Assembly (NCBI RefSeq): GCF_000738435.1
Contig: NZ_CP003984.1
Location: 2,790,001-2,854,000 of the forward strand
Direction: 5' to 3'
Length of the DNA: 64,000 nt
From: Planktomarina temperata RCA23
GTDB lineage: Bacteria; Pseudomonadota; Alphaproteobacteria; Rhodobacterales; Rhodobacteraceae
Position numbers and translations under genes: made by a program. This document shows, in pieces, positions 16,388 through 60,268 of the stretch. Numbering within the stretch: the first letter of the stretch is position 1; every line of letters begins with the position of its first letter. A model generated the notes under the pieces. That model saw only the letters and a list, made by a program, of their open reading frames with translations. It did no database searches and was not told the origin of the DNA.

Positions 16388-16412
16388 CCCCCCCCATCTA
16401 AGACGGGGGGGG
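16388..16412 (-). terminator. C8/G8 hairpin between the two adhesin genes
   Basis: A run of eight C, a 9-base loop and a run of eight G lie in the 107-nt gap downstream of adhesin 2 and upstream of adhesin 1. On the reverse strand the stem is followed by TATTTT. It may act as a weak terminator or attenuator between the two genes. Confidence 0.6.
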
Positions 16413-16426
16413 AATATATGTTTTAG

Positions 16427-19639: not shown

Positions 19640-19942
19640 AGTTTCTTTCTCCAGACATAAATGTTCACTGACCTTTTTAACCACGCGCCATGAATCTATT
19701 CAATATATTAAATTATGTTTAAAAAATACTAAACAATCCGTCAATAATTCACAATATAATTTAATAAAATGTATAACAATATGAATAACTAACGCATATT
19801 TCATACAGCTTAAAACTCATTGAAGCCGCGGTTTTAATGGCATTATTGTTAAAATTTAATCTTTCATTAACGATATAGCTACTGTACCCGTAGTTAAGCG
19901 TTACGATTCGAACTGCAGATCAATGGGAAAAGGAAATTAGGC
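19640..19942. promoter_or_regulatory. divergent promoter region with two CtrA-like boxes
   Basis: This very AT-rich 303-nt gap separates adhesin 2 (leftward) from the exporter operon (rightward). It holds TTAA-N7-TTAA at 19708-19722, about 70 nt before the adhesin ATG, and TTAA-N7-TTAAC at 19856-19871, about 70 nt before the tolC-like ATG. The second matches the alphaproteobacterial CtrA consensus fully. AT-richness raises the chance of random matches. Confidence 0.5.
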
Positions 19943-21319
19943 ATGAAGCATCAAAATTTAGCCTTAGTTACAGCGATGTTTGCGCTATCAGCGTGTGGCG
20001 CTCCGCAATATTCGACGGCAAAGCTTAACTCTGAAGTAAATGCTTTATCAAATGTATCATCTGATATTTTATCCCAACCAAAACTTGCAAAAGCTCTTTC
20101 AGGCGATTTCAAAAATGATCTCTCCAAAATCGTGATTAATTCACCTGAGTATATCGTATCTATGAGCAATTATAATAGATCCTTAAGTGAAATTTTAGTT
20201 GCAGATGCAGATAGAGAATTCCAAATTTCTGCGAGCGCTAATGCCGGTCAAACTGTTAAGGATGGCGCTGGTTTGGCCTCCACTACGGAACGCGGCGCCA
20301 GTGCAAACCTCTCGGTCAGTCAGCTCATCTTCGATGGCGGCTCCAGCGTTGCCAGAATAGACCAGGCACGGGCCAATGCCTTCATCGCAGAAATGGATGT
20401 GGCGCTCGCAGCCAATACCACCGCAAAAGATGCCGCGGTCTCATGGATTAACCTCGACACACTGAACATGCGCGACACACGATTTAAGGCGCTCATGACC
20501 AAAACCGAGAAAATGCTGACGCAGATGGAAACGCTTGTTGCGAGTGGTATGGTCGACAAGAGCGCCAGCGCCTCCGCAGAAATTGCCGCTCGAGCACTCT
20601 CTTTGGAAAAAGCAAATCTTGATGCTCAAATTGCAGCGGCGGAAGCCAGCTACATGAAATTCTTTGGAGCTGTCCCGAAAAATCTAACCACGCCGCCATC
20701 GCTTCTCACAGCCGCAGATCTGACCCATATCCAACGCAACTGGAACCGTGCACCAATAATGGCGCAGACAGCCGCTCAAGTTTTATCCGCCAAACAGAGT
20801 TTACTTGTGGCACAAGGTCGTGAAAAACCAACCGTCGGGTTCAAGGCCGGTATGGCATCGCCAATGGAAAAGGACGAGCGTACAACCTATGCAATCGGTT
20901 TAGAAGTGTCGTGGATCATTGGGGACGGTGGACGACGCGAAGCCAATACCGCCGCACAGGCTGCCAATTTGAAGGCGGCGGAGCAAAGGCTCAAAGGAGC
21001 AAAGCTGGCCGGAAAAAGAGAATTGGATACGGCGTTGAGCAGACGTACCGCGCTCACCGCCTCGCTTGACACACTCGTTGCGCAAGAAGCTGCGTCTCAA
21101 AATGAGCTTGAAATCATGTGGTCGCAACTTGCGACGGGCCAAACGACAGTTCGCCAATTGATTCAGGCCGAAGAGAAAGCCTACCGCACCTCTGATCAAA
21201 GAATATCGGTCGCCTCAGAGCTCCTAAAAATTGACTACGAAATGCTCGCCAGCTCGGGCCTTTTGTCAAAGCGACTGGGAATTAACACCAATAAGACCAT
21301 AATTAAGGCAGCAAAATGA
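19943..21319 (+). CDS. TolC/LapE-like outer-membrane lipoprotein of type I secretion
   Basis: A 458-residue outer membrane efflux protein. The N-terminus is a lipoprotein signal (ALVTAMFALSACG, Cys18 as the lipidation site), followed by two TolC-type helical repeats rich in Ala, Leu and Gln (SVSQLIFDGGSSVARIDQARANA; later GLEVSWIIGDGGRREANTAAQAANLKAAEQRL). It should form the outer-membrane channel with the HlyD and ABC proteins encoded downstream. AAGGA lies before the ATG, and its stop overlaps the ABC gene by 4 bases. Position beside RTX adhesins fits the LapE role in adhesin export. Confidence 0.85.
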   Translation: MKHQNLALVTAMFALSACGAPQYSTAKLNSEVNALSNVSSDILSQPKLAKALSGDFKNDLSKIVINSPEYIVSMSNYNRSLSEILVADADREFQISASANAGQTVKDGAGLASTTERGASANLSVSQLIFDGGSSVARIDQARANAFIAEMDVALAANTTAKDAAVSWINLDTLNMRDTRFKALMTKTEKMLTQMETLVASGMVDKSASASAEIAARALSLEKANLDAQIAAAEASYMKFFGAVPKNLTTPPSLLTAADLTHIQRNWNRAPIMAQTAAQVLSAKQSLLVAQGREKPTVGFKAGMASPMEKDERTTYAIGLEVSWIIGDGGRREANTAAQAANLKAAEQRLKGAKLAGKRELDTALSRRTALTASLDTLVAQEAASQNELEIMWSQLATGQTTVRQLIQAEEKAYRTSDQRISVASELLKIDYEMLASSGLLSKRLGINTNKTIIKAAK

Positions 21320-23484
21320 CGGATTTGACCGCATCAAAACCTCTGGACCATAGCGCTGATGAAGCGGATGTGGACCCGCAAGGCGTAACAGACGGTGAGC
21401 GCGCCGTAGAGGACACGTCAAACTCGACCGAAAGCGAGCTGGTGCTCACTCTCCAGAGGTTCCTTCGCGATCAAGGCGAAGCCTACAGCGAAGCGGCGAT
21501 ACGCGACCTGCCGGCCACGTCAAGCAATACGTTTTCACCGGCCGAAATGGTGAGCGTTTTACGCGAGATCGGCTATGTCGCCAGCTTTGGTCGTATCTCA
21601 GCCAACAACCTGGCACAGAGCCATTGCCCAATGATTGGGTTCTGGGAGGATGGTGGCGCGTTCATTTTGACCGAGATCAAATCGGACGGCACCGTCAAAT
21701 ACGCAAGTATCGAAAATAAACTTAAAATCAGAAAAATGTCGAAAGACCAGTTTTCGGCCAAGTTTTCCGGTCACCTTATTTTAGCGCGTCGTGACAGCAA
21801 TGCCAAAGCCAAATCGAGTAAGCGCTGGTTCTATTCGGCCTTCGCACAGGGCAAATGGCTCTACATACAAGTGATCTTAGCGGCCACAATGTCCAATTTC
21901 TTGGGCGTTTCGACATCAATATTCGTCATGGTGGTCTATGACCGCGTTGTGCCCAATGAGGCTATTGAATCGCTAATTGCCCTATCCATCGGCGTGATGA
22001 TCGCACTTGGGTTTGACTTCTTAACCAAGTCGCTCCGCGCCAACTTTATCGACCGGGCCAGCAAGCGGGCAGACGCGCGCATGTCGCGCATGGTGTTCGA
22101 CAAAATTCTCACGCTGCGATTGGACGCTGGCAATCAAAGCTCGGGAGCGGTGGCAAGTGTCGTTCGAGAATTTGACACGCTGCGAGAGTTCTTTACCTCT
22201 GCAACGCTCGTGGCGATTGTGGATTTGCCCTTTATCTTCTTCTTTATCTATGTGGTCTACTTGATCGGTGGAAATATCGCGATTGTGCCTTTGCTTGCAG
22301 TCCCTTGCGTGTTGATCATTGGCGTCGCTATTCAACCAATCTTAGCCCACCTCGCCTCAGGTGCCATGCAAACGGGCATGTCGAAACAAGCCGTGCTGGT
22401 CGAAACTTTGAATGGTCTCGACACGATCCAGGCCACCGGCTCCGGACGCCTAATGAAAAACCGTTTTGAAACCGCGACAACGGATCAATCTGAACTTGGC
22501 CTAAAAGCCCGAATTTTTTCACAATTCGCGATCAATTCGGCAGCTTCAATTCAACAAATCGCTCAGGTGGCAACAATCTTTTACGGGGTGTTTCTGATCC
22601 AAGCCCAAGAACTTACGATGGGCGGACTTATCGCCGCGGTCATTCTGGGGGGACGGGCCCTTGCGCCCCTTGGTCAGGTCGCATCGGCATTGTCGCGGGC
22701 CAACTCCGCACGCCAAGCTTTCCGCTCAATTGATAAGTTGATGAATCGGACAGATGGCGTTGCAGACTCCGATCAAAGATTGAGCCGCCCAGTCCTCAAA
22801 GGTGATATCGAGTTTGTAAACGTTTCCTACACCTTTCCTGGTGCGAAGAATGCGCTAATCAAGGGTCTTTCCATTAAAATCCCAGCAGGCCAAAAAGTGG
22901 CAGTTCTAGGCCGGATGGGGTCGGGGAAATCCACCTTTGCGAAACTCTGCGCCGGCTTGATCCAACCCACAACCGGATCTATTCTTTTAGACGGTATAGA
23001 CCTGCGTCAAATTGATAAATCCGACCTGCAACGTAATTTAGGCGTGATGCTACAGGAAACCTGGCTATTCTCTGGCACAGTTCGCGAGAATATCCAACTG
23101 GGCTACTATGAGTATGACGATGAGCATCTGCTGAAAATCTGCCAGCTCTCTGGAACGGACGATTTCATAAAAGGCAATCCAGCAGGCTATGACCTGAAGA
23201 TCAAAGAACGCGGTGTTGGGTTGTCTGGTGGGCAACGCCAGTCAATCAACCTCAGCCGCGCGCTCCTCCATGAGCCGAATATCTTGGTTCTTGACGAACC
23301 AACAAGCTCCATGGACTCCTCAACGGAGGCCGCAATCCTACAGCGCCTTGGCGACTACCTGACAGATCGAACCATGGTTGCGGTGACGCATAGAAACACA
23401 TTGCTCAATCTCGTGACCCGCGTCCTCGTCATGGACCAAGGGAATATCATCCTCGATTCCCCTCCCGGTGAGCTGAAAAAATAA
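21316..23484 (+). CDS. type I secretion ABC transporter (LapB-like) with C39-like domain
   Basis: A 722-residue exporter. An acidic N-terminal stretch (about 1-40) precedes a C39-peptidase-like domain (about 42-155) that lacks the catalytic cysteine motif, as in exporters that only dock their substrate. Membrane segments lie at about 185-460, and the nucleotide-binding domain has Walker A (GRMGSGKST), Q-loop region (MLQETWLFSGT), signature (LSGGQRQ) and Walker B (ILVLDEP). It powers one-step export of RTX proteins through TolC. It overlaps the tolC-like stop (ATGA) and is followed after 15 nt by the adaptor gene. No LapD or LapG genes were seen in the window. Confidence 0.9.
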   Translation: MTDLTASKPLDHSADEADVDPQGVTDGERAVEDTSNSTESELVLTLQRFLRDQGEAYSEAAIRDLPATSSNTFSPAEMVSVLREIGYVASFGRISANNLAQSHCPMIGFWEDGGAFILTEIKSDGTVKYASIENKLKIRKMSKDQFSAKFSGHLILARRDSNAKAKSSKRWFYSAFAQGKWLYIQVILAATMSNFLGVSTSIFVMVVYDRVVPNEAIESLIALSIGVMIALGFDFLTKSLRANFIDRASKRADARMSRMVFDKILTLRLDAGNQSSGAVASVVREFDTLREFFTSATLVAIVDLPFIFFFIYVVYLIGGNIAIVPLLAVPCVLIIGVAIQPILAHLASGAMQTGMSKQAVLVETLNGLDTIQATGSGRLMKNRFETATTDQSELGLKARIFSQFAINSAASIQQIAQVATIFYGVFLIQAQELTMGGLIAAVILGGRALAPLGQVASALSRANSARQAFRSIDKLMNRTDGVADSDQRLSRPVLKGDIEFVNVSYTFPGAKNALIKGLSIKIPAGQKVAVLGRMGSGKSTFAKLCAGLIQPTTGSILLDGIDLRQIDKSDLQRNLGVMLQETWLFSGTVRENIQLGYYEYDDEHLLKICQLSGTDDFIKGNPAGYDLKIKERGVGLSGGQRQSINLSRALLHEPNILVLDEPTSSMDSSTEAAILQRLGDYLTDRTMVAVTHRNTLLNLVTRVLVMDQGNIILDSPPGELKK

Positions 23485-23499
23485 GAATAAGAGAGCGTT

Positions 23500-24810
23500 A
23501 TGGCCAAATCAAAATTCGAAAAACTATCCCGAGAAATGGAAGAGCGTGAGGGCTTCGGCAACTCTCTCATCATCTTTGTCATTGCGGCCTTGATCGTCTC
23601 GGTATTGGGCTGGGCGTCCATCGCCGAGCTCGATAATGTCACGCGGGGCGATGGGAAAATTGTATCCACCACCCAGAACCAAATGGTCCAGTCATCGGAG
23701 TCTGGCGTGATCTTATCGCGCTCTGTTGATGAAAACGCCCTCGTGCAAACGGATGATGTGCTCTACGAAATCAATCCGATCGAATTGCAGTCAGAATTGG
23801 ATAAGCTTCAGCAACGGGCTGCAACACTCTTTGTCAGGGAGCTTCGCCTACAGGCAGAAAGCCGAGGATTAGAATTTGCGCCTGACGCATCTATGATGGC
23901 GCAGTCCAAGGATACGGCCGCAACTGAAGAGGCCCTACACCTTGCCAAGCGCAAAGAGCTCTCTGGGCTGATGTCTATCCTGAAGCTGCAAAAAATCCAA
24001 CGGGAGCAAGATCTAACAGCATCTCAACAGGCCCTTGAGACGTCACGCAATATGCTGGGCCTGATCAAGGATGAAATCACCATCATTGATCCGCTGGTGC
24101 GCCAAAATATCATGCCCGAAACGCGGCTTTTGGAGCTGCGCCGTGATGAACAGCGCATGTCTGGCGAAATTCAGGCCGGGGTAGCCCGGGTCGCGATCGC
24201 ACAGTCTGCCATCTTGGAAGTTGAAAACGAGATATCAAATGGCCTCGACAGCTATAAGCGCCGTGCGCTTGAAGAGCTTAATACCGTTGTTGCCGAATTA
24301 AGTGAGGTCAATACACTTGTTCCCGCGCTACAAGAGCGGGTTAAACGCACAGTAATACGCGCGCCGGTCGACGGTATTGTTAATCGGATCAACTTTCAAA
24401 CTGTTGGTGCATATGTCCGAGCGGGGGATGTGATACTGGAAATTGTGCCGACGGGAGAGGCGCTTAAACTCGAAGCTCAAATAGATCCAAAAGACATTTC
24501 GAGCATCCGTATGAACGATTTTGTACGCATCCGTTTGAGTGCCTATGACTCCTCTAAGTATGGCGCTATTGACGGATATGTAACAAGCATAAGCCCCGAT
24601 GCCATCACTGATACATCCGGAGGTGCCAGTCGTTCATACTACCTACTCGATATATCTATCGACAGCGGTATTACCTTGGAAACGGGCGAAGAAGTGGTCT
24701 TGCTTCCCGGCATGACAGCAACCGTGGATGTGGTTTCCGGAAAGCGGACCGTTCTCGACTATATCTGGCAACCCGTTTCAAAAGTTAAAGAGTTGGCTCT
24801 ACGTGATTAA
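23500..24810 (+). CDS. HlyD/LapC-family membrane fusion protein
   Basis: A 436-residue adaptor with one N-terminal membrane anchor (about 25-45), then a beta-barrel/lipoyl segment (VTRGDGKIVSTTQNQ), a long coiled-coil hairpin (about 110-275) and a second lipoyl half (RTVIRAPVDGIVNRI). The C-terminus shows the family end pattern (GMTATVDVVSGKRTVLDYI). It bridges the ABC exporter to the TolC-like channel. It belongs to the same operon, 15 nt after the ABC gene, with GAGAG before the ATG. Confidence 0.9.
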   Translation: MAKSKFEKLSREMEEREGFGNSLIIFVIAALIVSVLGWASIAELDNVTRGDGKIVSTTQNQMVQSSESGVILSRSVDENALVQTDDVLYEINPIELQSELDKLQQRAATLFVRELRLQAESRGLEFAPDASMMAQSKDTAATEEALHLAKRKELSGLMSILKLQKIQREQDLTASQQALETSRNMLGLIKDEITIIDPLVRQNIMPETRLLELRRDEQRMSGEIQAGVARVAIAQSAILEVENEISNGLDSYKRRALEELNTVVAELSEVNTLVPALQERVKRTVIRAPVDGIVNRINFQTVGAYVRAGDVILEIVPTGEALKLEAQIDPKDISSIRMNDFVRIRLSAYDSSKYGAIDGYVTSISPDAITDTSGGASRSYYLLDISIDSGITLETGEEVVLLPGMTATVDVVSGKRTVLDYIWQPVSKVKELALRD

Positions 24811-32805: not shown

Positions 32806-33798
32806 TCAGGCGTCAACCAACCGTAGGTTGGGTTTCGGATCTAACTCTTGTGGCGCATTCTGGGCAATATAGTCCCATGTCGCAAGCGCGATCATTGCGG
32901 CATTATCTGTTGCCCATTTTTGCGGCGGCAGGCAAAGGGAGACACCCGTCTCCTCGCTGATCTGCTGCATATGCGCACGCAGCTGACGGCTTGCCGCCAC
33001 ACCGCCAACCACGGCCAGCGAGGCGGGCCGCTTTTGCGCGATGGCACGGCGCAGCTTGGCCCCCAATACGTCCAAGCAGGCATCCACAAAGGAGGCCGCG
33101 ACGTCATCGATTACAAACTCTGGATGGGTTTCCACATAGCGCGCCACACTAGATTTGAGCCCAGAGAAGGAAAATTCATAGCCGGAATGAATCATTGGCC
33201 GTGGAAATTTTATCCGAGCGGTGCCAGAGGCGGCCATGCGGTCAATCGCCGGACCGCCGGGCATTCCCAGCCCAAGTGTGCGAGCCACCTTGTCGTAGCA
33301 TTCCCCAACTGAGTCATCGCGCGTGGTGCCTAAAAGCTCATAGGAGTGTTGGTCTTGAAGATAGGCCAAAAGCGTGTGCCCACCCGACACCAGCATGACA
33401 AGCGCTGGATAGGTGAGGCGTTTTTCTTCTAGATCCACACTGCGGATATGTCCCCGCAGATGGTTAATTCCATAGCAGGGCAGATCCCAAGCCATGCTCA
33501 AAGCCTGGGCCGTCGACAAGCCCACCAAAAGCGATCCCATGAGCCCCGGTCCGCGCGTAACCCCAATGGCACGAAGTTCCAGGCGGCCTGCGCCGGCCTG
33601 TGCCATGACAGTTTCAATGGTGGGCAAAATGGCTTCGAGATGTGCGCGGCTGGCCAATTCGGGATAAACACCGCCAAATTCCGAATGGACCTCATATTGC
33701 GAAACGGTTTCAATCGCCGCAATCTGACCATTTTGATCAACCAAAGCCACAGAGGTATCATCGCAAGAGGTTTCAATTCCCAGCACCAAATCACCCAT
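32806..33798 (-). CDS. tsaD: TsaD, tRNA N6-threonylcarbamoyladenosine transferase
   Basis: A 330-residue Kae1/Qri7-family protein starting at MGDLVLGIETSCDDTSVAL. It contains the metal-binding motif NHLRGH, the ATPase-fold segment LVSGGHT, SVGECYDKVARTLGLGMPGG and the C-terminal VVGGVAASRQLR. It transfers the threonylcarbamoyl group to A37 of ANN-decoding tRNAs together with TsaB and TsaE. It is the last gene of a tsaE-tsaB-tsaC-tsaD operon and overlaps tsaC by 8 bases. Start further upstream (33855) is not supported. Confidence 0.95.
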   Translation of the reverse strand: MGDLVLGIETSCDDTSVALVDQNGQIAAIETVSQYEVHSEFGGVYPELASRAHLEAILPTIETVMAQAGAGRLELRAIGVTRGPGLMGSLLVGLSTAQALSMAWDLPCYGINHLRGHIRSVDLEEKRLTYPALVMLVSGGHTLLAYLQDQHSYELLGTTRDDSVGECYDKVARTLGLGMPGGPAIDRMAASGTARIKFPRPMIHSGYEFSFSGLKSSVARYVETHPEFVIDDVAASFVDACLDVLGAKLRRAIAQKRPASLAVVGGVAASRQLRAHMQQISEETGVSLCLPPQKWATDNAAMIALATWDYIAQNAPQELDPKPNLRLVDA

Positions 33799-34420
33799 GG
33801 CGCACCTCCAAATATTCAGCCAATTGCGCCTGCGATATCGCGCCCAAACGCTCAATCACAGCGGGAGACTGGGTGCAATTGATCAAGGTTGAGGCCACGT
33901 CCGCGCCTGCCGGCCCTTCCACAACCAAATCCGGCGCATCCGTCAATTGCGCGAGAACCGCAGAAGCATTCGCCGGTGTCGGATGGCCAGCACGGTTGGC
34001 ACTTGTCACCAACAGCGGGCCAACCTGGCGCAAAAGTGCCAGCAAGAGCGGCGCATCAGGAATGCGAAAGGCGATCTCACGGCGACCGGCCAGCCAATCT
34101 GGGCAAGTTTGAGGATCAATCTCTGCGGCAATCGTCAGAGCGCCCGGCACAAACGGACTGGCCAGAGCCTGCTCGATGGTTGGTGTGAGAAGCACGCCAA
34201 GATCGACAAGCTGCTCTGACGTGGCCACCATGATCGGAAGAGCCTTGGCCCGAGGCCTATCTTTTAATGCATAGAGGCGATCCACACCGGCCTGCATATT
34301 TGGCAAAGTGGCAAGCCCTAAAACCGTATCCGTTGGTAAAAGCACCACTCCACCGGCCCGCAAAGCCGCGACGATGCGCGGCAGGTTCGCCAAATCATTG
34401 GACAAAGCGCCCCCGGTCAT
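33791..34420 (-). CDS. tsaC: TsaC/Sua5 L-threonylcarbamoyladenylate synthase
   Basis: A 209-residue YrdC-fold enzyme: GGVVLLPTDTVLGLA, LYALKDRPRAKALPIMV and VTSANRAGHPTP are the nucleotide- and threonine-binding motifs. It makes threonylcarbamoyl-AMP from threonine, bicarbonate and ATP, which TsaD then uses. It overlaps tsaB by 4 bases (ATGA) and tsaD by 8. The length fits the short TsaC form without the Sua5 C-terminal domain. Confidence 0.92.
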   Translation of the reverse strand: MTGGALSNDLANLPRIVAALRAGGVVLLPTDTVLGLATLPNMQAGVDRLYALKDRPRAKALPIMVATSEQLVDLGVLLTPTIEQALASPFVPGALTIAAEIDPQTCPDWLAGRREIAFRIPDAPLLLALLRQVGPLLVTSANRAGHPTPANASAVLAQLTDAPDLVVEGPAGADVASTLINCTQSPAVIERLGAISQAQLAEYLEVRHG

Positions 34421-35070
34421 TGCGCGGTCACACTTAAATTTTCAGAGATTGGAAACACGCGTGTGCTGCGCGGGGATGTTTGATATTTTTCCAATCCTAA
34501 GGCTAGAAAACACTCCATAGACGCAGAGTTTCCCTGTGACACCGGCCAGATCTCATCGGGCGCATTTTCGACATTGGGGAAGGCAAATTTCCCGGCGAAA
34601 TCCGCAATGTCGCGATGCGCGCGCACAAACTCTTTCACCGCCTCAACATCCGTAAACTGAAACTGTGACAGCACGCCGGCTTCGACTTTTCCGATGTAGT
34701 AATTTGGGCGCGCAGCAGGACGAATACAGACCACCGGCCGCTCCCCGCCCGCTGATACATGGCGGCCAATCAGCTCAAAAGCATGCAGACCGATCACGGG
34801 GATCGACGCGGCGAAGCCCAAAGCATTGGCAAAGGCCACAGTGGTGCGGGTCGCGCCCAGCCCACCGGGCCCAGTATCGACAAATACACAGCCCACGTCG
34901 GACATCGCCTTGCCAGTTTGATCCAATCCCGCTTGCACATGGGCCTGCACATTGCGCAAGCCCACCAAAGCGGCATCCCGCGAGCTGTCGAAGATCAGCC
35001 GGTCGCCCTCTCCCAAACCAACAGCCATTTGACCGGCAGAATTTTGCAACAAAAGCGATATCATAGCCAT
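34417..35070 (-). CDS. tsaB: TsaB, t6A complex subunit
   Basis: A 217-residue ASKHA-fold protein. The N-terminal strand (LLLQNSAGQMAVGL) and the VFVDTGPGGLGATRTTVAFANALGF segment, corresponding to the conserved GPGSFTGLR region, identify it. It is a diverged member, as usual in Rhodobacterales. AAAGGTG lies 7 nt before the ATG at 35070; a second ATG at 35064 overlaps the tsaE stop. TsaB forms a dimer with TsaD and recruits TsaE. Confidence 0.88.
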   Translation of the reverse strand: MAMISLLLQNSAGQMAVGLGEGDRLIFDSSRDAALVGLRNVQAHVQAGLDQTGKAMSDVGCVFVDTGPGGLGATRTTVAFANALGFAASIPVIGLHAFELIGRHVSAGGERPVVCIRPAARPNYYIGKVEAGVLSQFQFTDVEAVKEFVRAHRDIADFAGKFAFPNVENAPDEIWPVSQGNSASMECFLALGLEKYQTSPRSTRVFPISENLSVTAQ

Positions 35071-35543
35071 TCACGCGAACACCTTTGTTGAAACTGCGTC
35101 AAAAGACGATGGGCCCGCTGCCCCATAGCTGCAATCTCCAAAACCCGCGCGCCGTCCTGCTCAGGAACTGCCGAGAAGGTGATGCGCAGATATGCGTCAA
35201 AAGCCTCCTCAATCCGGCCGCCCCATTCTATGATTGAAATGGCGGTTTCAATCTCCTCTTCAAGCCCCAGATTGTAAAATTCCTGCGCGCCAGACAGGCG
35301 GTAGGCATCCACATGCAACACATCACATCGCTTTGTCTGATAGATATTGGCGATCGTATAGGTGGGGCTGGATATATCGTCTTGAGTTCCAAGCGCTTGG
35401 ACAAGATGGCGCGTGAAATAGGTCTTGCCCGCCGCCAAGCCGCCCTGCAACAGCACCACATCGCCCGGGCCGAGCAACTCCGCCAGGGATACCGCGATTT
35501 CAGCGGTCATCGCCTCAGTTTTGGCGGTAAGGCGCCAAGGCAT
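35061..35543 (-). CDS. tsaE: TsaE, t6A complex ATPase
   Basis: A 160-residue P-loop protein with Walker A GGLAAGKTYFTR, the DDISSPTYTIANIY switch and the LHVDAYRLSG strand, all typical of TsaE. It hydrolyses ATP to reset the TsaBD complex. The start at 35543 gives normal family length; a GTG at 35579 would add 12 residues. It is the first gene of the four-gene t6A operon and overlaps tsaB. Confidence 0.9.
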   Translation of the reverse strand: MPWRLTAKTEAMTAEIAVSLAELLGPGDVVLLQGGLAAGKTYFTRHLVQALGTQDDISSPTYTIANIYQTKRCDVLHVDAYRLSGAQEFYNLGLEEEIETAISIIEWGGRIEEAFDAYLRITFSAVPEQDGARVLEIAAMGQRAHRLLTQFQQRCSREWL

Positions 35544-35794
35544 TGGCACAGCGCTTTCAAGGTCACAAACAGGGGCCACGGGGTCTACTCACCACTCAGA
35601 GGAAGATCGCGCCCCTTTTACGGAGTGTCGAAGGCAATGAAAAGCCGCTACATGACCGGCGCGGCGCAAAACCCAGCTGGTGGCCAGATAGCTTGCGCCA
35701 CCTTCGCCGCCGCCCTAATCTGCGCCCTATGGCGCCCGCCGCCCGCCTTCACATCAGAGCCAAGCGGATCTGACCCCAGCTTTGGAGCTCCAGC

Positions 35795-36578: not shown

Positions 36579-36600
36579 AAAAAGCCACCCAGAGGGCGGC
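36579..36600 (-). terminator. terminator of the former tRNA-Met transcript
   Basis: On the reverse strand GCCGCCC-TCT-GGGTGGC is followed by TTTTT. It lies 25 nt beyond the 3' end of the partial tRNA, as expected for the original tRNA gene. Confidence 0.6.
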
Positions 36601-36624
36601 CATTTGCAATACTATCGAAACACT

Positions 36625-36669
36625 TGGTTGCGGGAGTAGGATTTGAACCTACGACCTTCAGGTTATGAG
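36625..36669 (-). tRNA. 3' half of tRNA-Met(CAT): element attachment site
   Basis: On the reverse strand the 45 bases give an anticodon loop CTCATAA (anticodon CAT), the 3' anticodon strand, variable loop, T arm GTAGG-TTCAAAT-CCTAC, the acceptor 3' strand and CCA. Beyond the anticodon loop the sequence diverges and no 5' half follows, so this is a partial gene. It sits 150 nt upstream of a phage-type integrase, the classical arrangement of an attachment core in a tRNA gene. A rebuilt complete tRNA is expected at the other end of the element; none was found in the window. Confidence 0.85.
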
Positions 36670-36822
36670 TGAGGTGGTATTTATACCTTATGAGATCTAA
36701 TACAGCTTCATTTATCCAAATTTTATCATTGTTTAATGAACCATTTCGAATTGTGATTGTCTGATGCAACTTGATGAGATACCCTCATGTAACACTCACA
36801 ACGTAGCAATAACGCGGCAATA

Positions 36823-38073
36823 ATGCTCACAGACAAACAGATACGAGACGCAAAGCCCAAAGACACAGTTTATCGCTTGCGAGACACGCAATCTGTCGTC
36901 TGCGGCTTCGGCCTGACGATCGCCCCATCAGGCGCGAAGAGTTTCTTCCTGTCGTATACAAGCCCAGAAGACGGCCGGCGTAAGCAGATTAGTTTGGGGA
37001 AGTACCCAGCCACCAAACTCGCTGACGCTCGAAGGTTGGCATTGGAATACCGCGGGCGCATCGATAACGGCACCGACCTCGCGAGAGAAAAACAGCAGGC
37101 GATCGCGCACAATATGGAGCAAAGATCTCTGGGCACATTAGGTGACTTGCTTGAACTGTATATTGCCGATCTTGAAGAAGACGGGAAGCGCACAGCTAAA
37201 GAAGTTAATCGTATCAAAGGAAAGGATATCCCCCAATTTCTACTATCGCGCCCTGCTCATCTCATATCCCGAGATGACGTATTAGATATCCTAGCCGCTA
37301 TCGCGCAAAGAGGGGCAAAGGTTCACTCAGATAACGTTCGCGCCTATTTAAGGGCCGCATTTGAGCTTGGTATTCACGCGCAATCGATGACCAGGTGGCG
37401 CGGGAAAGCCCCCAGATTCAGGATCGAACACAACCCTGTTGCTACAATTAAACGGACGCTTAGCCGAAAGCCAAAAGGACAGCGCGCACTATCAGAGGCC
37501 GAGGTCCGAGAGCTGTGGTGCACAAATCTACTAACGCCACAGATGCATCTTGCACTGAAGTTCATACTGGCAAGCGGCCAACGGGTGGAAGAGGTCCTCC
37601 ATGCAACTTGGGACGAGTTTGATTTAGGAAAGAAATTGTGGACGATCCCGGGAGAACGTCGAAAGACGCGCGGCAAAACTAGCGAACCGCATCTCGTTCC
37701 TTTGGCTGAGCTGCACATACAAATACTCGATGACATCGGCAGAACGACACGCGATCCACGCTTCTTATTTCCGGCACGAGGGACCGGCGGGCCCCGGCGA
37801 TATGACAGCCTCACCAAATCTGTAACGATATTTGTGAAAAATAGTGGAATGCAGTCCTTCTCTGCCCGCGATCTTCGTCGAACTTTCAAAACCCTTGCTG
37901 GTTCAATGAGCATTCCCCTGGAGATGCGCAACAGGCTGCAAGGACACGCCTTAGTGGATGTCGGCAGCGTTTATTACGACAGGTATGATTATCTGGACCA
38001 GAAACGAGAAGCTATGGAGCAGTGGGTTTTGGACCTAGGCAAGATCATTACTACAGCAACCAAAAATGAGTGA
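36823..38073 (+). CDS. P4-type tyrosine-recombinase integrase
   Basis: A 416-residue integrase. The N-terminal Arm domain (LTDKQIRDAKPKDTVYRLRD...GFGLTIAPSGAKSFFL) and ISLGKYPATKLADARRLA are typical of tRNA-targeting P4 integrases. Catalytic residues are the Arg in ASGQRVEEVL, RDLRRTFKTLA, the His in LQGHALV and the Tyr in VGSVYYDRYDY. The first catalytic His of the HxLRRT box is Ala-Arg here, a known variant. It faces away from the attachment site, with the next gene overlapping by 8 bases. It should catalyse integration and, with AlpA, excision. Confidence 0.9.
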   Translation: MLTDKQIRDAKPKDTVYRLRDTQSVVCGFGLTIAPSGAKSFFLSYTSPEDGRRKQISLGKYPATKLADARRLALEYRGRIDNGTDLAREKQQAIAHNMEQRSLGTLGDLLELYIADLEEDGKRTAKEVNRIKGKDIPQFLLSRPAHLISRDDVLDILAAIAQRGAKVHSDNVRAYLRAAFELGIHAQSMTRWRGKAPRFRIEHNPVATIKRTLSRKPKGQRALSEAEVRELWCTNLLTPQMHLALKFILASGQRVEEVLHATWDEFDLGKKLWTIPGERRKTRGKTSEPHLVPLAELHIQILDDIGRTTRDPRFLFPARGTGGPRRYDSLTKSVTIFVKNSGMQSFSARDLRRTFKTLAGSMSIPLEMRNRLQGHALVDVGSVYYDRYDYLDQKREAMEQWVLDLGKIITTATKNE

Positions 38074-38713
38074 GGTGTTAAACAAAATCAATGAAGCAGG
38101 GGCCCTTTGTATCAAGCTCACGCATGCCATTCGTCAAGATGAGGGACCAAAGCCATCTCAATCACAAATCTCTAACGAAATGATCTCAACGGGACTGGAA
38201 CGCATCCGCTGCCTGATCCAGGACATCGACATTGCTTCACTCAATTTTTCAGAAAACGAACATCAGGAAGAACTGATGAAGTTTTCAGCGATCCAAAGTT
38301 TTCTGAAAGTTTTTGAAGAACGGGAGAACGAAATTTATTCTAAGGCGAACCTGGAGATTTTTGGGCTTCAAGTAGACGTACTACACGGAGGTCCTTCTGC
38401 CACAATCTTGGGCGGGCGGAAGGCTGGCAAGAAACTGGGCGTTCAACAACAATACCTGAGAGCCGCAGCTGTACTGCTTTGGAAGTTTCACAAAGCCAAC
38501 AAGGACGAAGAGCTCCTTAACAAACTGATCGCTGATGCTAGAACTGTTATTGGGATTGGGAGCAAAAAGAAGCTAGCCAAAATGATTGATAACCATGATC
38601 AAAATCACGACTTCGATTTGGTGAAAAGTAAATCCCACTTGAGCGTTCATATTCCCGGCATAGAAAATTTAATCAAAAACTACGGATATCGCCGACTTAC
38701 CGATTTTACGTGA
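38066..38713 (+). CDS. hypothetical protein coupled to the integrase
   Basis: A 215-residue soluble, charged and mainly helical protein. It overlaps the integrase stop by 8 bases, so it is co-translated. There is a conserved-looking segment GGRKAGKKLGVQQQYLRAAAVLLWKFH, and no signal peptide or membrane segment. I do not recognise a family. Being fixed behind the integrase suggests a role in element maintenance, but this is only inference. Confidence 0.65.
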   Translation: MSEVLNKINEAGALCIKLTHAIRQDEGPKPSQSQISNEMISTGLERIRCLIQDIDIASLNFSENEHQEELMKFSAIQSFLKVFEERENEIYSKANLEIFGLQVDVLHGGPSATILGGRKAGKKLGVQQQYLRAAAVLLWKFHKANKDEELLNKLIADARTVIGIGSKKKLAKMIDNHDQNHDFDLVKSKSHLSVHIPGIENLIKNYGYRRLTDFT

Positions 38714-38714
38714 T

Positions 38715-38744
38715 TTCCTGAACGCCCCCCATCCCATTCAGGAA
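38715..38744. promoter_or_regulatory. perfect 8-bp inverted repeat before alpA
   Basis: TTCCTGAA (38715-38722) and TTCAGGAA (38737-38744) are perfect mirror arms around a C-rich 14-base spacer. The repeat lies just after the stop of the preceding gene and 49 nt before alpA, so it may be an operator for the excision module or a weak terminator. Confidence 0.45.
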
Positions 38745-38792
38745 GTGACCTGATGCAGTCTCCTCTTAGTCGAACTGAGAAGGAGATATTCG

Positions 38793-38993
38793 ATGAAACC
38801 GCAATTTGTACAATCTGATCTGATGCTAGCAGATGAGGTCGATGCCCGCATTCCATACAGCCGCGCGCATTTATACCGCCTGGAAGACCAGGGCGAATTC
38901 CCAAAGCGCAGACGCATTGGACCCAATCGTGTTGCGTGGATCCGTACTGAAGTCGAGCAATGGCTCGCAAAGCGTATGGAGGAACTGTCATGA
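38793..38993 (+). CDS. AlpA-family excisionase/regulator
   Basis: A 66-residue AlpA-type helix-turn-helix protein: ARIPYSRAHLYRLEDQGEFPKR and VAWIRTEVEQWLAKRMEE are diagnostic. AAGGAG lies 8 nt before the ATG. In P4-like elements AlpA activates or directs integrase-mediated excision. Its stop overlaps the next start (ATGA). Confidence 0.88.
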   Translation: MKPQFVQSDLMLADEVDARIPYSRAHLYRLEDQGEFPKRRRIGPNRVAWIRTEVEQWLAKRMEELS

Positions 38994-39565
38994 GTAAGGA
39001 CCCAGCAAGCAAAACGCGCTTTGATGCGTCAAAGTTCAAAATGAAGAGCATGGATGCCAACGATCCTGTCGCACAAAAGGTTATAATCAGGCTACCGATT
39101 AAGAAGCCGCACAAGGAAGAATTTGTCAGGTGCCTTTCCAGTGACGAATATCAGATCTCATGCGGCATATATCAGCCAAAGGATGAGGAGCGCATCTATT
39201 TGGTCGCGCCTGACATTGCTCATCTTTTTGGTACAAGCGTAAAACACGTGTCCCTGTGCTTAGGAATGAACAGACAAGGGAAGGTTTTTCTTTGGCCAGT
39301 TCCTCTACCGCCCGAAGAAGGTAAAGAAAATCAGTATCACCAAACGCACCGCGAGATAGCCGAGGTCGCGGTGCATAGCTGGGTGAAGATGCAAGCCGAT
39401 ACCAGTGGCGGTTTCTACGACTATCACGTCGCAGTGGGCAAGCTATCAGAACCAGTGTGGCCCACGACACCATTTGAAGACCTATTAGAGATAGCTTTTG
39501 GAAGCTCTGGGGTCATTGAAGATCGCGATCACCCCACTCTGCGCCAATTAGAAGGGCGGGACTGA
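38990..39565 (+). CDS. hypothetical island protein upstream of the DNA polymerase
   Basis: A 191-residue protein beginning MSKDPASKTRFDASKFK after GGAGG, with its ATG overlapping the alpA stop. Its stop overlaps the start of the polymerase gene by one base. It contains IYQPKDEERIYLVAPDIAHLF and VFLWPVPLPPEEGKENQ, WVKMQAD and an acidic C-terminus. No known family is recognised. Tight coupling suggests it works with the polymerase, perhaps as an accessory DNA-binding protein. Confidence 0.65.
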   Translation: MSKDPASKTRFDASKFKMKSMDANDPVAQKVIIRLPIKKPHKEEFVRCLSSDEYQISCGIYQPKDEERIYLVAPDIAHLFGTSVKHVSLCLGMNRQGKVFLWPVPLPPEEGKENQYHQTHREIAEVAVHSWVKMQADTSGGFYDYHVAVGKLSEPVWPTTPFEDLLEIAFGSSGVIEDRDHPTLRQLEGRD

Positions 39566-41313
39566 TGTACACAAACAGTGCCAACCTACCCTTTCGAAAG
39601 ATCCTTTCGATCGATTTTGAATACTGTGGTGCAGATGGCGAGGTACCAAAAATCGTTTGTATGGTTATCCAAGATCTCCGATCAGGCGTAGTGAGCAGAT
39701 ATTGGCGTGATGATCTGGGCAAAATGAACACTCCCCCGTTTGAAACGGGGGAGGATGTTGCCATCGTTAGCTACTTTGCGCCCGCAGAGGTGCAGAGCAT
39801 GGTTGCCCTATCTTGGACTATCAACGTGTCGGTCATTGACCTGTTCGCAGAATTCCGATGCCAAACGAACGGTGATCCTAACGTTGGCAGAAAATCACTG
39901 GTCAGTGCTCTACAGTTCTATGGGCTGAAGCAATTTGTCCCTGAAGAAAAAGACAGCATGCGCGATCTGATTCTGTCTGGAGGTCCGTGGTCCGAGGCTC
40001 AACGCTCTGCAATCTTGGATTACTGTCAGCAGGACGTCATTGCACTTGGTCCTTTGTTAGATGCGATGCTGAAACGTGCACCTTGGTCCGAGCTACAGTT
40101 TAATCAGGCCATACTGCGCGGGCGATACATGAAAGCAGTTGGGGCCATGCAACACCGCGGCATTCCAATAGATTTAGACATGTTCGACAAGCTGAACGCT
40201 AACTGGGAGGACATAAAGCTAAACCTCATCGAAAATGTAGACGCTCAGTATGGTGTCTACGTCGATGGCCGTTTTAAGGAGGCTTTGTTTCAGTCCTATC
40301 TCGCGCATGGGACGATTCCTTGGCCTCGGCTGGATAGTGGTCGCCTCGCGCTTGATCGCAACACCTTCAGTAACATGAGTAAGCGTTATCCTATCGTGCA
40401 GCCATTACATGAACTGCGGAAAACATTAGGTGAATTCAAGCTGAATAACCTCGCAGTTGGGCGAGATGGACGAAACCGAACGCTCCTATCGCCCCTCGCC
40501 GCAAAGACGGGTCGCAACCAACCGAGCACCACTAAATTCATATTTGGTCCTGCAAAATGGATACGTGGCTTAATCAAGCCCACTGAGGGGGCGGCTTTGG
40601 CCTATTGTGATTGGTCTTCGCAAGAAATTGCGATCGCCGCTGCGCTCTCAGACGACGACCTCCTTTGGGCGGCTTATCAGAGTGGCGATCCTTATATTGC
40701 ATTTGCAATCCAGGCGGGTCTAGCGCCGCCAGGGGCAACGAAAGATACCCACAAAGGCATCCGTAACCGCTGTAAGTCGGTGGTTCTGGGCACCAACTAT
40801 GGCATGAGCGCCTATGGTGTGGCTCAGGCCGCTAAGATCCACGAACTGGAAGCGAAGTCGCTGCTCCAAAAGCACCGCGAGACCTATCGTAAGTTTTGGG
40901 CCTGGGCCGAAAACAACAAAGATCGTGGATTGCTCGGCTTCAAATTGGAAACCTGCTTCGGCTGGCCCATCCAAGTGACCGCAGGTGATGTAAAGGCCAA
41001 TACTTTCTTGAACTGGCCAATGCAGGCGCATGGCGCAGAGATGATGCGTATTGCCTCTATCCTTGCGGTAGAGCGCGATATCAAACTCTGCGCTCCGATA
41101 CATGACGCTCTTCTGATTGAGGCACCCAGTGATCAAATAGATTCAGAGGTCGTAAGACTGAAAGAATGTATGTCAGAAGCCAGTGAGGCAGTCTTGGGCG
41201 CGGGTAAAATTTGCAGGGTTGATGCAGATATCGTCCGCCATCCAGATCGCTACATGGACGAACATGGCCAACAAATGTGGGACCAAATCATGGGTCTCAT
41301 GGATAGAACTTAA
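39565..41313 (+). CDS. family-A DNA polymerase with 3'-5' exonuclease domain, element-borne
   Basis: A 582-residue DNA polymerase I-like enzyme. An N-terminal DEDDy exonuclease (about 10-180) has ILSIDFEYCG as Exo I and YCQQDVIALG as Exo III. The polymerase palm has motif A AYCDWSSQEIAIAAALS (catalytic Asp), motif B RNRCKSVVLGTNYGMS and motif C APIHDALLIEAP. Motif C is HDA rather than the usual HDE; the metal-binding Asp remains. The 5' nuclease of cellular Pol I is absent. It is encoded within a tRNA-integrated element, downstream of AlpA. It probably serves replication or repair of the element. Confidence 0.9.
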   Translation: MYTNSANLPFRKILSIDFEYCGADGEVPKIVCMVIQDLRSGVVSRYWRDDLGKMNTPPFETGEDVAIVSYFAPAEVQSMVALSWTINVSVIDLFAEFRCQTNGDPNVGRKSLVSALQFYGLKQFVPEEKDSMRDLILSGGPWSEAQRSAILDYCQQDVIALGPLLDAMLKRAPWSELQFNQAILRGRYMKAVGAMQHRGIPIDLDMFDKLNANWEDIKLNLIENVDAQYGVYVDGRFKEALFQSYLAHGTIPWPRLDSGRLALDRNTFSNMSKRYPIVQPLHELRKTLGEFKLNNLAVGRDGRNRTLLSPLAAKTGRNQPSTTKFIFGPAKWIRGLIKPTEGAALAYCDWSSQEIAIAAALSDDDLLWAAYQSGDPYIAFAIQAGLAPPGATKDTHKGIRNRCKSVVLGTNYGMSAYGVAQAAKIHELEAKSLLQKHRETYRKFWAWAENNKDRGLLGFKLETCFGWPIQVTAGDVKANTFLNWPMQAHGAEMMRIASILAVERDIKLCAPIHDALLIEAPSDQIDSEVVRLKECMSEASEAVLGAGKICRVDADIVRHPDRYMDEHGQQMWDQIMGLMDRT

Positions 41314-41412
41314 GGATAACCAACGCGGTTTCCGCGGGACACCTACGCGCGTTCAGCGGCACCGTATCTATATCCTTATTATTCTCCTTTAATATAAATA
41401 TGGGGTAGTAAT

Positions 41413-41748
41413 ATGAGCCATATGAGAGCCGCTCAGAGAGCCAAACGGGATGCACTGTTCCTAAAAGGACCTGTTAAATTTGGGTGCATAAGACAGAACA
41501 TTCCCGATCCAACATCAAGGCTGATCTTGGTAGCCTGGGCATTTATGAGAATGTCTACGCCCGAAGTTTCAAAAGTCACATTAACAGCCCAGGTGTGGGA
41601 TTGTGCAGGGATCGAGAGCCCAGATCAGCGGTCTAGGGTCTTGAAAAAGATTGATCAGCATTGTCCGGGCTACTGGGTTGAGCGGCGCGAGGGTCGAACG
41701 GCCGTGTTACACAAAGGCAAAGACCCCAATGAAATTGGGCCCGAATGA
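41413..41748 (+). CDS. winged-helix-like island protein
   Basis: A 111-residue basic protein. The C-terminal half, LTAQVWDCAGIESPDQRSRVLKKIDQ followed by GYWVERREGRTAVLHKG, is compatible with a small winged helix. A truncated homologue is at 9142-9336. GGGGTAG precedes the ATG. The gene converges on an HGGxSTG gene across a 150-nt gap with a strong inverted repeat. Function is unknown. Confidence 0.6.
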   Translation: MSHMRAAQRAKRDALFLKGPVKFGCIRQNIPDPTSRLILVAWAFMRMSTPEVSKVTLTAQVWDCAGIESPDQRSRVLKKIDQHCPGYWVERREGRTAVLHKGKDPNEIGPE

Positions 41749-41764
41749 ATTTGTTGGACAAACA

Positions 41765-41807
41765 ATCAAGGCCCATGGACCAAGGACCAAGGACCACGGG
41801 CCTTGAT
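41765..41807. repeat. heptamer repeats within a perfect hairpin between convergent genes
   Basis: ATCAAGGCCC (41765-41774) and GGGCCTTGAT (41798-41807) are perfect 10-bp mirror arms. The loop consists of GGACCAA units in tandem. The hairpin may terminate both convergent genes. Further units lie at 41873-41895 and 42432. Confidence 0.65.
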
Positions 41808-41897
41808 CTGGGGTGCCCCCCTTCTGCGTTCTGGCTGTCTGCTATCACGCTTTGCTGCAGTAACCCCGGCCTAAGGATCGTGAACCTTGGACCTCGG

Positions 41898-42257
41898 CTA
41901 TAGTTTCCAATCTTTGCGCCAGTTTCGATCTAGGATACCCTGTTCAACTAAACTTTTTTCAATTTGCTTGATCTCTGAACGGACTGCGCGCCCGACCTCA
42001 GCGCGTTTTTTGGCAGCCTGGCGCTTTTCTTTTGTAAATCGCCCGTGAGTAGTGTGGAGTGCCGCGATTTTATCCTTGCCGGCTTGGGTGCGAGGTCCTG
42101 TAGATTTGCCGCCGTGCCTCGTACATCTGCCCGTCAGCTTCACTGCTGGACGCTGACATGCGCCACCAGCTTTGGTTCGTGCACCACAGCGGACTCCAGG
42201 CCAATCAGGGCCAAAACGCGTCTTTAACCCAATTTTAACGTTATCTTTTGTTAACAT
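41898..42257 (-). CDS. HGGxSTG-domain protein, element copy
   Basis: A 119-residue protein beginning MLTKDNVKIGLKTRFGPDWPG; an ATG 12 codons upstream (42293) is possible. It has the Cys/His module RCGARTKAGGACQRPA and RCTRHGGKSTGPRT and a basic helical tail, clearly homologous to the protein at 9357-9713. The module may bind zinc. It is often found on mobile elements, and its function is unknown. Confidence 0.72.
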   Translation of the reverse strand: MLTKDNVKIGLKTRFGPDWPGVRCGARTKAGGACQRPAVKLTGRCTRHGGKSTGPRTQAGKDKIAALHTTHGRFTKEKRQAAKKRAEVGRAVRSEIKQIEKSLVEQGILDRNWRKDWKL

Positions 42258-42825
42258 TCGAAACACCCCTATATGAGTGTTATAAAATAACATAAATCAC
42301 GATGCAGCACGAGGGCGCACACTTAGTTGAAATAACGCCACCAAAGGTTGCGCAGATCCTTGCTCAGGTTAGCCAGGCTCACGGGTCCGCTACTCAACCC
42401 GCTTAACTTCGCGCGTTAATTGTCGATAACCTTGGACCTCTGAAAATGACAGTCTGGGCCATAAATCCATGATTTGGGTTTGGGATTAATTTTGCTCAGC
42501 GGCATCTGCTTGTGAGGATTAATAAGAGCCCAAATTGAACGCAGTGACTAGCAATGTGTAGCTTGATCCAGGGACAGCCCCTAAGCAAAATCTTCCAACC
42601 TCAACTATGAGCATGCAATGCCAACAATAAGTTCAAGGAGCGTGGTCCAGTTCCCTCACCTCTTGGCGCAATATCTCTACTTTAGGCATTGGACTAAAGC
42701 AGTCATTAATTCAAATCGCCGCGAAGGGCTGCTTAGAGCCCATAGTGACGATGTCATCAATCGTATCAAATGACCGCTTCTGACGACATGGCCTCTATTC
42801 ATCTGGCGCAATCGGCTCTCAGCGA
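42258..42825. other. gap between the integrative element and the catabolic locus
   Basis: A 568-base region without a supported gene. It holds one more GGACC unit (near 42432). No tRNA-like attachment core was found here, so the right border of the element is not placed. Confidence 0.5.
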
Positions 42826-43914
42826 TCAGAGAACCAGCTTCACATCCGCGGCATCAAAGACGTCATAGTCAAGTTGTCGCAACATATCAATTAGATCGAC
42901 AAAGACCCAGTTCTCAACCAATAAATCGCCCTCGCGTCGCCACCAGTCAGCCACGCGCGCGGTAAACATCTGACCCTCGGCTTTGACGCCCAGCCAGTCC
43001 TTTGCAAGATGGCCTCCGTGGGATGGCCAACCTCCGGAAGCAACATAGTTGCCGTCACCAAATCGGGTGAAGTGGCCTTTGACGGCGAGATCCAGATCCG
43101 ATCCGACGGGGCAGGTCATCATGGCTTCGCCTTTGCGGCGCGGATCAAAAACACTCTCATATGGCATCTGGAAACGAGCAAAACCTTCGAGACCGATGTA
43201 ACTTCCATAGCCTGCTGGCCCGTACCACATCATGTTTTGGTGCCAGTAGGGCCGCCATGCTTCATCTTCTGTATAAAGCTGTTTGAGCATATCGAAGACC
43301 ATGTTGACACTTTTTTCGCTCTCTGAAGCATCCTGCAGGTCCATGATAAGACCATCCCCAGTAATCGGACCCGGGATGAAAAATTCTTCGCCAACGCTGG
43401 CAACGGTGAGTGGCCAGCGGCCGATCTGACGTAGAAGATCTATCAAATCGACGAATATGTAGCTTTCGATAGCACGGCCATCTTCCATCCGGTGGAACTC
43501 GCCATAGCGGAGAAAGATAACCTGGCCTGTGGCTGGTATCCCCATCCAATCCTTTTGGAAGCTGCCAACATAGTGGCCGTGCCCAGTCACCCAGTCGCCG
43601 CCTTTGGCGTGGCCTGCGAAAAGAAGGTCCGTGCGGCGATAAAGATCGGGCATCGCGGTGAGGAGCGGTTGAAAGAACGTGTCGATCATCCCCGCAGAAC
43701 CGCTGAGGAGATCAAAGGGTGCTGAAATGTTGATCTGTGCATCTGCGCTGAAAAACGTCTTAGAGGCATCTCCGGCGAGATTGGCTGCGTCCAGACGCAG
43801 TTTGTCGCAATAGGATTTATATTGGAGTTTATTCGCTTGATGAATGGAAGAAGCGCCACTTTGACGCCGGGCGTCCGCCGGTGCGTACACAGGTGCATTA
43901 TCGTGGAATATCAT
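42826..43914 (-). CDS. tandem SnoaL/NTF2-like protein A
   Basis: A 362-residue protein with two SnoaL/NTF2-like domains (about 45-185 and 205-350). Each has the cone-fold pattern of WYGPAGYGSYIGLEGFARFQ and a closing strand-helix DLLVENWVFVDLIDMLRQLDYD. No signal peptide is seen, so it is likely cytoplasmic. Three further proteins of this build lie at 44964, 51934 and 54730. SnoaL-type domains can act as cyclases, isomerases, dehydratases or binding proteins. It is the most distal gene of the leftward arm. AAAAGGA precedes the ATG. The substrate is unknown. Confidence 0.8.
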   Translation of the reverse strand: MIFHDNAPVYAPADARRQSGASSIHQANKLQYKSYCDKLRLDAANLAGDASKTFFSADAQINISAPFDLLSGSAGMIDTFFQPLLTAMPDLYRRTDLLFAGHAKGGDWVTGHGHYVGSFQKDWMGIPATGQVIFLRYGEFHRMEDGRAIESYIFVDLIDLLRQIGRWPLTVASVGEEFFIPGPITGDGLIMDLQDASESEKSVNMVFDMLKQLYTEDEAWRPYWHQNMMWYGPAGYGSYIGLEGFARFQMPYESVFDPRRKGEAMMTCPVGSDLDLAVKGHFTRFGDGNYVASGGWPSHGGHLAKDWLGVKAEGQMFTARVADWWRREGDLLVENWVFVDLIDMLRQLDYDVFDAADVKLVL

Positions 43915-59259: not shown

Positions 59260-60268
59260 TTGATGTTGACGACTAAACAGAGCTGTCCTCACCTTGGCGG
59301 CAACAATGAGCCAGATGTACTCAATTGTCGAACACTGCCTTAGGCACATGAGCGCTGACGGTAGCCACGCTCGTGGCACCCTTTAGGGCCTTGGCCGAGA
59401 AAAGTGCAGAAAGCCAAACAAAGACCAGAACAGCGTAAGGTAGATTTGTCCGCATCTCGTTTGTTAGAAAAGGCCGCTGAGAAAGGCCATTTTGAGAACA
59501 ACCAAGATCGGCCCGTTTGAACGGCCGGTTCGGTGAAAAGTGCTGCACCGCAAAATGACCAGCGCTGCAAGTGCCAACATTTGCTGCGTCAGCAGTAGCC
59601 GCAGCTGCAAAAGGCCGCTTTGTCCGCATAGCAGCCGTTAGTGCTTGGCCAACGCAATGTCTGCTTCCTCAGTTGGTGGTGTCAAACAAAACCCCCTCCC
59701 AATGAATTTACAAGGCTAATACTTAAGGCCCGCGGTCAGAGGCGCGGGGCCTTACAATAGTGGTGAGAGGTCCTTAGCCCTACAGATCAACTGTAGCGAT
59801 TACGTACAGCAACCCTCTGCCGTTGGTCCAAGGACCGCGGCCCGAGCAAAACTATCCAACGACACCTGTGCACAGGTAACACTGAAGGCGGAAACGTGGA
59901 TGGGTGCTCTACTATCCGTGGACCTTGGCTCTTGATCCCCAGTCCACAGACCTAAGCAAGATGATCCAGGAACCCCGGGCCAGGTTTCATGTGGCAAATG
60001 GGGAGTGTTTCGTCATTGGACGGGGATGCAAACCCGTCCTGTGCGTCTTGAGTGGATTCATTTTAAAACGCCAACGAACAGATTTTTTATTTATATCTTT
60101 TTTGATCTTACCAGACAACTCACGGTCAATTCGAGACCACTCCCAATTATGAAAACTTCTCAATGTGAACCCACAAGAGTCGAATGGGGGGGTCGCCATT
60201 CGGTATGCCTTGTAAAACCGAAAGTGATGATAGCGTACAAACACGTCATAAATAGAGAGGAGTAATCG
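59260..60268. other. 1-kb intergenic region with repeats
   Basis: No supported gene. A leftward frame at 59321-59629 has a repetitive, low-information composition. Near 59722-59754, TAAGGCCCGCG and CGCGGGGCCTTA can pair as a hairpin. Heptamer repeats follow at 59820-59955. The last 300 bases are AT-rich and probably carry the promoter of the next operon. Confidence 0.5.
59820..59955. repeat. third cluster of GGTCC/GGACC heptamers
   Basis: TTGGTCCAAGGACCGCGG (about 59824-59841) and CCGTGGACCTTGG (about 59919-59931) match the repeats near 9.7-11.9 kb and 41.8 kb. No gene is associated here. Confidence 0.6.

Follow-up and report, generated by a model that had tools for sequence, protein, structure and literature searches.

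The family-A DNA polymerase (Pol A) encoded at 39565–41313 of the window, i.e., the 64,000-nucleotide stretch of Planktomarina temperata RCA23 DNA analysed here, probably serves to replicate satellite-type integrative elements, a family that uses a polymerase and a single-stranded DNA-binding protein (SSB) in place of a primase and helicase. It is encoded within a conserved cassette with the order integrase, small ORF, AlpA-type helix-turn-helix (HTH) gene, gene for a probable OB-fold ssDNA-binding protein, Pol A and small ORF; in this genome the cassette lies at one edge of a 43.9-kb island in tRNA-Met. The features are listed below by window position.

36624–36669, minus strand: attL, a 46-bp repeat formed by the 3′ part of tRNA-Met; the partner repeat and the intact tRNA-Met are at genome position 2870493, beyond the window
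36823–38073, plus strand: tyrosine integrase, 416 aa (Arm-DNA-bind_3 2.4e-20, Phage_integrase 1.9e-10)
38066–38713, plus strand: 215-aa ORF with an 8-nt overlap with the integrase stop, in the place of PICMI iolg (L047/L056 homologue 72% identical)
38793–38993, plus strand: AlpA-type excisionase/regulator (HTH), 66 aa (PF05930 2.3e-12, PHROG 2790)
38990–39565, plus strand: probable OB-fold ssDNA-binding protein, 191 aa (24 of 24 testable loci; model pLDDT 90.1; gp32 rows with Z 4.0–4.8)
39565–41313, plus strand: family-A DNA polymerase with 3′-5′ exonuclease, Leu762 and HDA in motif C (ORF, Pfam, alignment, model)
41413–41748, plus strand: 111-aa ORF, conserved 3′ of the polymerase (resembles a winged helix by eye, with no family matched)
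41765–41807, no strand: inverted repeat (arms of 17 nt) separating convergent genes and perhaps acting as a terminator
41898–42293, minus strand: HGGxSTG-domain protein, 131 aa, conserved in marine elements (NCBIfam NF041373, 48.4 bits against a cut-off of 29)
42294–64000, no strand: start of the cargo (SnoaL proteins, ABC transport, metabolic genes), which runs on to genome position 2870492 (names except SnoaL assigned by eye)

The polymerase ORF is uninterrupted, encodes 582 aa and matched Pfam DNA_pol_A (1e-22) and the PHROG 17 DNA polymerase (1.8e-42). Residues 10–565 of its AlphaFold model (pLDDT 87.9) aligned to the large fragment of Bst Pol I (Z 28.2, 527 residues). The exonuclease residues D17, E19, D92, Y153 and D157 and the polymerase residues D349, E354, R400, K404, Y412 and D514 were invariant in a 12-sequence alignment; which of them are catalytic we take from work on the Klenow and T7 enzymes. 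The protein lacks an N-terminal 5′ nuclease domain, and all class features of a family-A exonuclease-polymerase of this kind were present. The ORF, Pfam match, alignment and model thereby bear out the sequence-only reading, which had described such an enzyme, with HDA in its motif C (APIHDALLIEAP), beside AlpA and an integrase. The host's own Pol I is encoded elsewhere (G000:C1 111811) and is 25% identical to the window polymerase. Comparison of the latter with its 89% identical relative in L056 gave a dN/dS of 0.13, indicating purifying selection.

The reading of HDA in place of the usual HDE was correct, but the motif is not a telling alteration. A check of motif C across the clade showed that HDA is fixed and not peculiar to the window polymerase. 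It was present in all 35 near-clade rows reaching motif C (29 aligned rows, five short rows and the window, with the near-duplicates L060/L061 and L062/L064 included) and in 22 of 23 phage relatives, a set biased by its retrieval with near-clade patterns; all 24 chromosomal Pol I sequences carried HDE. The short rows represent near loci of < 430 aa (L043, L044, L045, L100 and L101), which were kept out of the tree and the aligned residue counts and whose motif C, read separately, was HDA in every case; the L098 polymerase stops short of this motif. At the motif B position corresponding to E. coli 762, Leu was found in 30/30 near-clade rows, 23/23 phage relatives and 0/24 chromosomal Pol I rows, all 24 of which had Phe. 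Polymerases with Leu762 form a known and abundant group in virioplankton (PMC6302109, PMC9069017). In the phage Pol A Tt72, the E883 position is occupied by Ser, replacement of which with Ala retains 76% of the activity, and mutation of the adjacent Asp leaves 4% (PMC9324360). Because the motif is clade-wide, the gene is under purifying selection and Tt72 offers an analogue, HDA is a marker of lineage and no sign of an inactive polymerase; inactivity owing to HDA was rejected as an explanation on the same three grounds. A different peculiarity was seen in L069 (9977–12286), whose polymerase has an insertion of ca. 150 aa in the thumb region. This insertion looked like an intein, but no intein family matched, and Pfam returned DNA_pol_A only.

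The genetic context of the polymerase was highly consistent. A homologue of the 191-aa ORF was located directly upstream at all 24 testable loci, namely those in which the 5′ end of the polymerase was intact and reachable (23 loci plus L098). An integrase was found within 6 kb of the polymerase at 19 of the 20 loci for which ≥ 2.7 kb of upstream sequence was available, the exception being L044, whose polymerase is truncated; the enzyme was therefore not encountered as a stable chromosomal gene lacking an integrase. Neither the 191-aa-family profile nor an integrase profile built from near-clade integrases matched in the 23 phage-relative loci. The distribution of the polymerase is patchy: with the own genome counted in each sample, genomes carrying it numbered 4 of 20 in the genus, 3 of 394 drawn from the family, 6 of 385 drawn from the class and, using a stricter threshold, 2 of 398 drawn from the phylum. 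In a 78-row tree built after removing the motif columns, the element-encoded polymerases formed a distinct near clade (SH-aLRT 95 without the long-branched L099, 78 with it), and the chromosomal Pol I sequences were far from it. The same contigs appear under two locus names in three cases (L005/L037, L046/L101 and L047/L056). Truncated or broken polymerase copies occurred in L044, L045, L097 and L100, which are probably decayed elements.

Of the two functions proposed in the sequence-only reading, self-replication is supported: Pol A is borne on the element, in a conserved cassette, and probably takes part in replicating it. The alternative, a defence-related role, is not supported. A polymerase serving defence or repair (for instance in filling gaps or as a Pol A-type enzyme acting against phages), with the element as a mere carrier, is highly improbable. 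Some defence systems do contain polymerases, and PADLOC gave RTasPolA (4e-21) as its sole match. However, this match is explained by Pol A homology, no reverse transcriptase, the neighbour expected in that system, was matched among the seven module proteins scanned, and both the pairing of the polymerase with an SSB-like gene and an integrase and the existence of terminase-bearing relatives point to replication of the element.

The 191-aa partner encoded at 38990–39565 is a probable OB-fold ssDNA-binding protein, the structural matches being weak (Z < 5). None of the 24 family members matched PHROGs, no relative was found in the PDB by sequence, and a scan of viral contigs with the family profile returned only an already-known contig. 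The confidently predicted model (pLDDT 90.1) gave no match at E ≤ 0.001 in a Foldseek search against the PDB (best E 0.13), where the first row, above that threshold, was PrgE, a plasmid protein whose structure was determined in complex with DNA; one unnamed protein was matched in BFVD (7e-4). In a second structure search (VIA), the four best rows were gp32 of T4 and RB69 (Z 4.0–4.8, up to 138 residues aligned), and the SSB P12 of PRD1 was among the next rows. These scores are low and may reflect merely a common OB arrangement. The invariant or near-invariant aromatic and basic residues of the family (W102, W116, W131, Y143, W157, K39, R47 and R133) would suit ssDNA binding. Between the window and L056 (9414–10001), the SSB-like gene was only 41% identical, in contrast to 89% for the polymerase and 91% for the integrase; it was 88% identical between L056 and L034. 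Given this discrepancy, the SSB-like gene has probably been swapped within the replication cassette.

Some small relatives are complete as judged by their repeats. The 9.7-kb contig L057 has a 46-bp repeat at 54, within an intact tRNA-Cys, and again at 9636; the 9.58-kb element between the two copies encodes, in order, an integrase, a 162-aa ORF, a 72-aa HTH-like ORF, an SSB-like gene, Pol A, a 153-aa ORF, the small (TerS) and GpA-type large (TerL) terminase subunits and an HK97-type capsid protein. The first and last 127 bp of the 8,418-bp contig L063 are identical, and this contig is therefore read as an 8,291-bp circle, although it could instead be a concatemer or head-to-tail tandem copies. 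Its order is integrase, 156-aa ORF, HTH, 153-aa ORF, SSB-like gene, Pol A, 172-aa ORF, HNH, TerS and TerL, the last remaining open across the contig join for 558 aa. The genome G508 consists of one complete contig of 1.2 Mb; provided that this contig is circular, it contains a 9.9-kb element flanked by 42-bp repeats, of which the first is in tRNA-Arg. Pfam detected neither a primase nor a helicase among the ORFs of L057 and L063 other than the SSB-like and Pol A genes, and no tail gene was matched on the L057, L063 and G508 elements.

Packaging genes were also found in other relatives: TerL together with a protease-capsid fusion in L059, TerL in L060, and two TerS-like genes with no TerL seen in L062. 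By cluster membership, a terminase gene was present in 11 of the 14 near-clade IMG/VR loci (L056–L069), a share that is biased by the preselection of IMG/VR for viral appearance and that includes two near-identical pairs. Such genes, and the otherwise viral affiliation of Leu762 Pol A, would fit a prophage remnant or small temperate phage of which the cassette represents the part for replication and integration, the structural genes being lost or located elsewhere. This is nonetheless improbable, as the L057, L063 and G508 elements are complete by their repeats at 8–10 kb, below the size of tailed phages, and carry no matched tail gene. In a SAR116 genome (L036, 1753–4175), a second, opposite-facing integrase and a Terminase_2-type TerS adjoin the Pol A element, an arrangement that is possibly a tandem satellite.

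The copy in the window differs from these compact relatives in its surroundings. Although the sequence-only reading regarded the element as small, the att repeats in this genome are 43.9 kb apart, with the right end beyond the window, and enclose ca. 38 kb of cargo, mostly metabolic genes as read by eye. An island of this size exceeds known satellites, which counts against a satellite origin. The island's extent varies in relatives. In G009, of the same genus (same contig as L046/L101), a polymerase fragment is 95% identical to that of the window and an intact tRNA-Met lies 3.7 kb past the polymerase; the island is therefore short on that side. In G004, the gene flanking the island on the left is present (98% identity across 224 aa) and is only ca. 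0.8 kb from the tRNA, so that the island is absent, though the site is not clean. G004 was rejected as a clean attB, as ca. 0.75 kb of other sequence, partly a dispersed repeat, separates the flank from the tRNA. A dispersed, apparently non-coding repeat of the RCA23 genome, also adjoining tRNA-Met in relatives, occurs at 8282–8375 and 59683–59758 of the window and, on the same numbering, at 72497–72769, 75505–75565 and 79984–80480. Elsewhere in the window, a run of apparent tRNA t6A synthesis genes (TsaD, TsaC/Sua5, TsaB and TsaE) was recognised by eye at 32806–35579, as were two very large repetitive proteins beside apparent type I secretion genes (outer-membrane, ABC and membrane-fusion) at 12786–24810.

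No packaging gene such as TerS was found in the window module; more broadly, none was seen inside the module at the bacterial-genome loci, and the modules of the marine elements, window included, contained no terminase or capsid gene. The seven proteins of the window module gave no Pfam match to a helicase family, no relaxase or conjugation family was matched in the module, and no DUF3987/DUF5906 primase family was present. A search for origin iterons across 36600–42900 yielded no direct repeats within 250 bp and only the inverted repeat. The missing packaging genes, the ca. 38 kb of cargo and the decay of copies in some genomes would be compatible with a non-satellite genomic island that uses its own polymerase for a short phase of replication once excised and is spread by another route (conjugation in trans, generalised transduction or vesicles). 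This alternative is unlikely, if less so than a prophage origin, given the terminases in the close tree relatives L057 and L063 and a module without a matched relaxase or conjugation family.

For the satellite-type element that we favour, the following cycle can be envisaged. The integrase and AlpA, both identified in the sequence, would cut the element out as a circle at its att site in the tRNA gene. The excised circle would be copied by the element's own Pol A, aided by the ssDNA-binding protein encoded upstream, from a host-made primer or nick and perhaps with the small protein encoded downstream. Copying would probably require no element-coded primase or helicase and proceed by strand displacement, which is plausible because two of five primer-extending viral Pol A enzymes with Leu762 displaced strands (PMC9069017). 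An SNF2-type helicase gene was located near Pol A in all four phage relatives chosen by eye, and a host helicase may accordingly be needed for replication by Pol A. Since relatives carry terminase and capsid genes, the DNA would probably be packaged by or with a helper phage, partly by the element's own genes where capsid genes exist. A broader proposal, that these elements form a soil-to-ocean satellite class with its own minimal replisome of a strand-displacing Pol A and a dedicated ssDNA-binding protein rather than primase and helicase, copied independently of host or helper polymerases, is tenable but must be regarded as tentative.

If this interpretation is true, the element would provide a transfer route in a bacterium in which, according to a 2023 paper, neither plasmids nor prophages occur and no gene transfer agent is complete (PMC10675870). 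Polymerase-plus-SSB satellites would then represent another replication route for very small elements. Satellite finders that require a primase would overlook them, primases being usual in small phage-satellite-like elements.

The label "P4-like" given earlier describes the gene order less well than a PICMI- or PICI-like architecture. Judged in part by the general definitions of PICI and capsid-forming PICI, the family resembles both in that L057, L059 and L063 carry TerS, TerL, HNH or capsid genes behind the integrase, regulator and replication genes, and L062 is PICI-like in carrying TerS only; it differs in having no pri-rep gene and in its marine members without a packaging gene. The likeness to the PICMI of Vibrionaceae (PMC10803314) lies in the order integrase, integrase-overlapping small gene, AlpA, small gene and replication gene, in the low gene number, in the lack of capsid-remodelling genes and in the marine hosts. 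In contrast, PICMI carry a DUF3987/DUF5906 primase instead of Pol A and an SSB-like gene, integrate at fis instead of tRNA genes (tRNA-Met in the window) and are described from Vibrionaceae, whereas the present elements occur in Alphaproteobacteria and have soil and freshwater relatives. In PICMI115, excision requires AlpA, the integrase and the overlapping gene, and deletion of the primase occupying the slot of our polymerase lowers the number of circular copies (PMC10803314). In architecture the element is like a PICMI or PICI, yet it lacks defining features of these: it has no primase, is not in fis and has no TerS on the window copy.

The satellites MulchRoom and MiniFlayer are likewise reported without primases, but the word "polymerase" is absent from the main text of that report, which accordingly describes no Pol A (PMC10690885). 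No satellite whose replication gene is a Pol A was found in the literature searched, i.e., titles and abstract openings together with passages of PMC10803314, PMC11389934, PMC10690885 and PMC13376191, and novelty in print is not claimed. The enzyme itself is closest in character to the Leu762 Pol A of virioplankton, with which it shares the exonuclease-polymerase organisation, the lack of a 5′ nuclease and Leu762 (PMC6302109, PMC9069017). SNF2, UvrD or RecB helicases are frequent, though not universal, on the virioplankton contigs described there (PMC6302109, PMC9069017), whereas an integrase and an SSB-like partner accompany the polymerase in the element clade. If our interpretation holds, it would suggest that some of the Leu762 Pol A genes in viromes belong to satellites rather than to phages.
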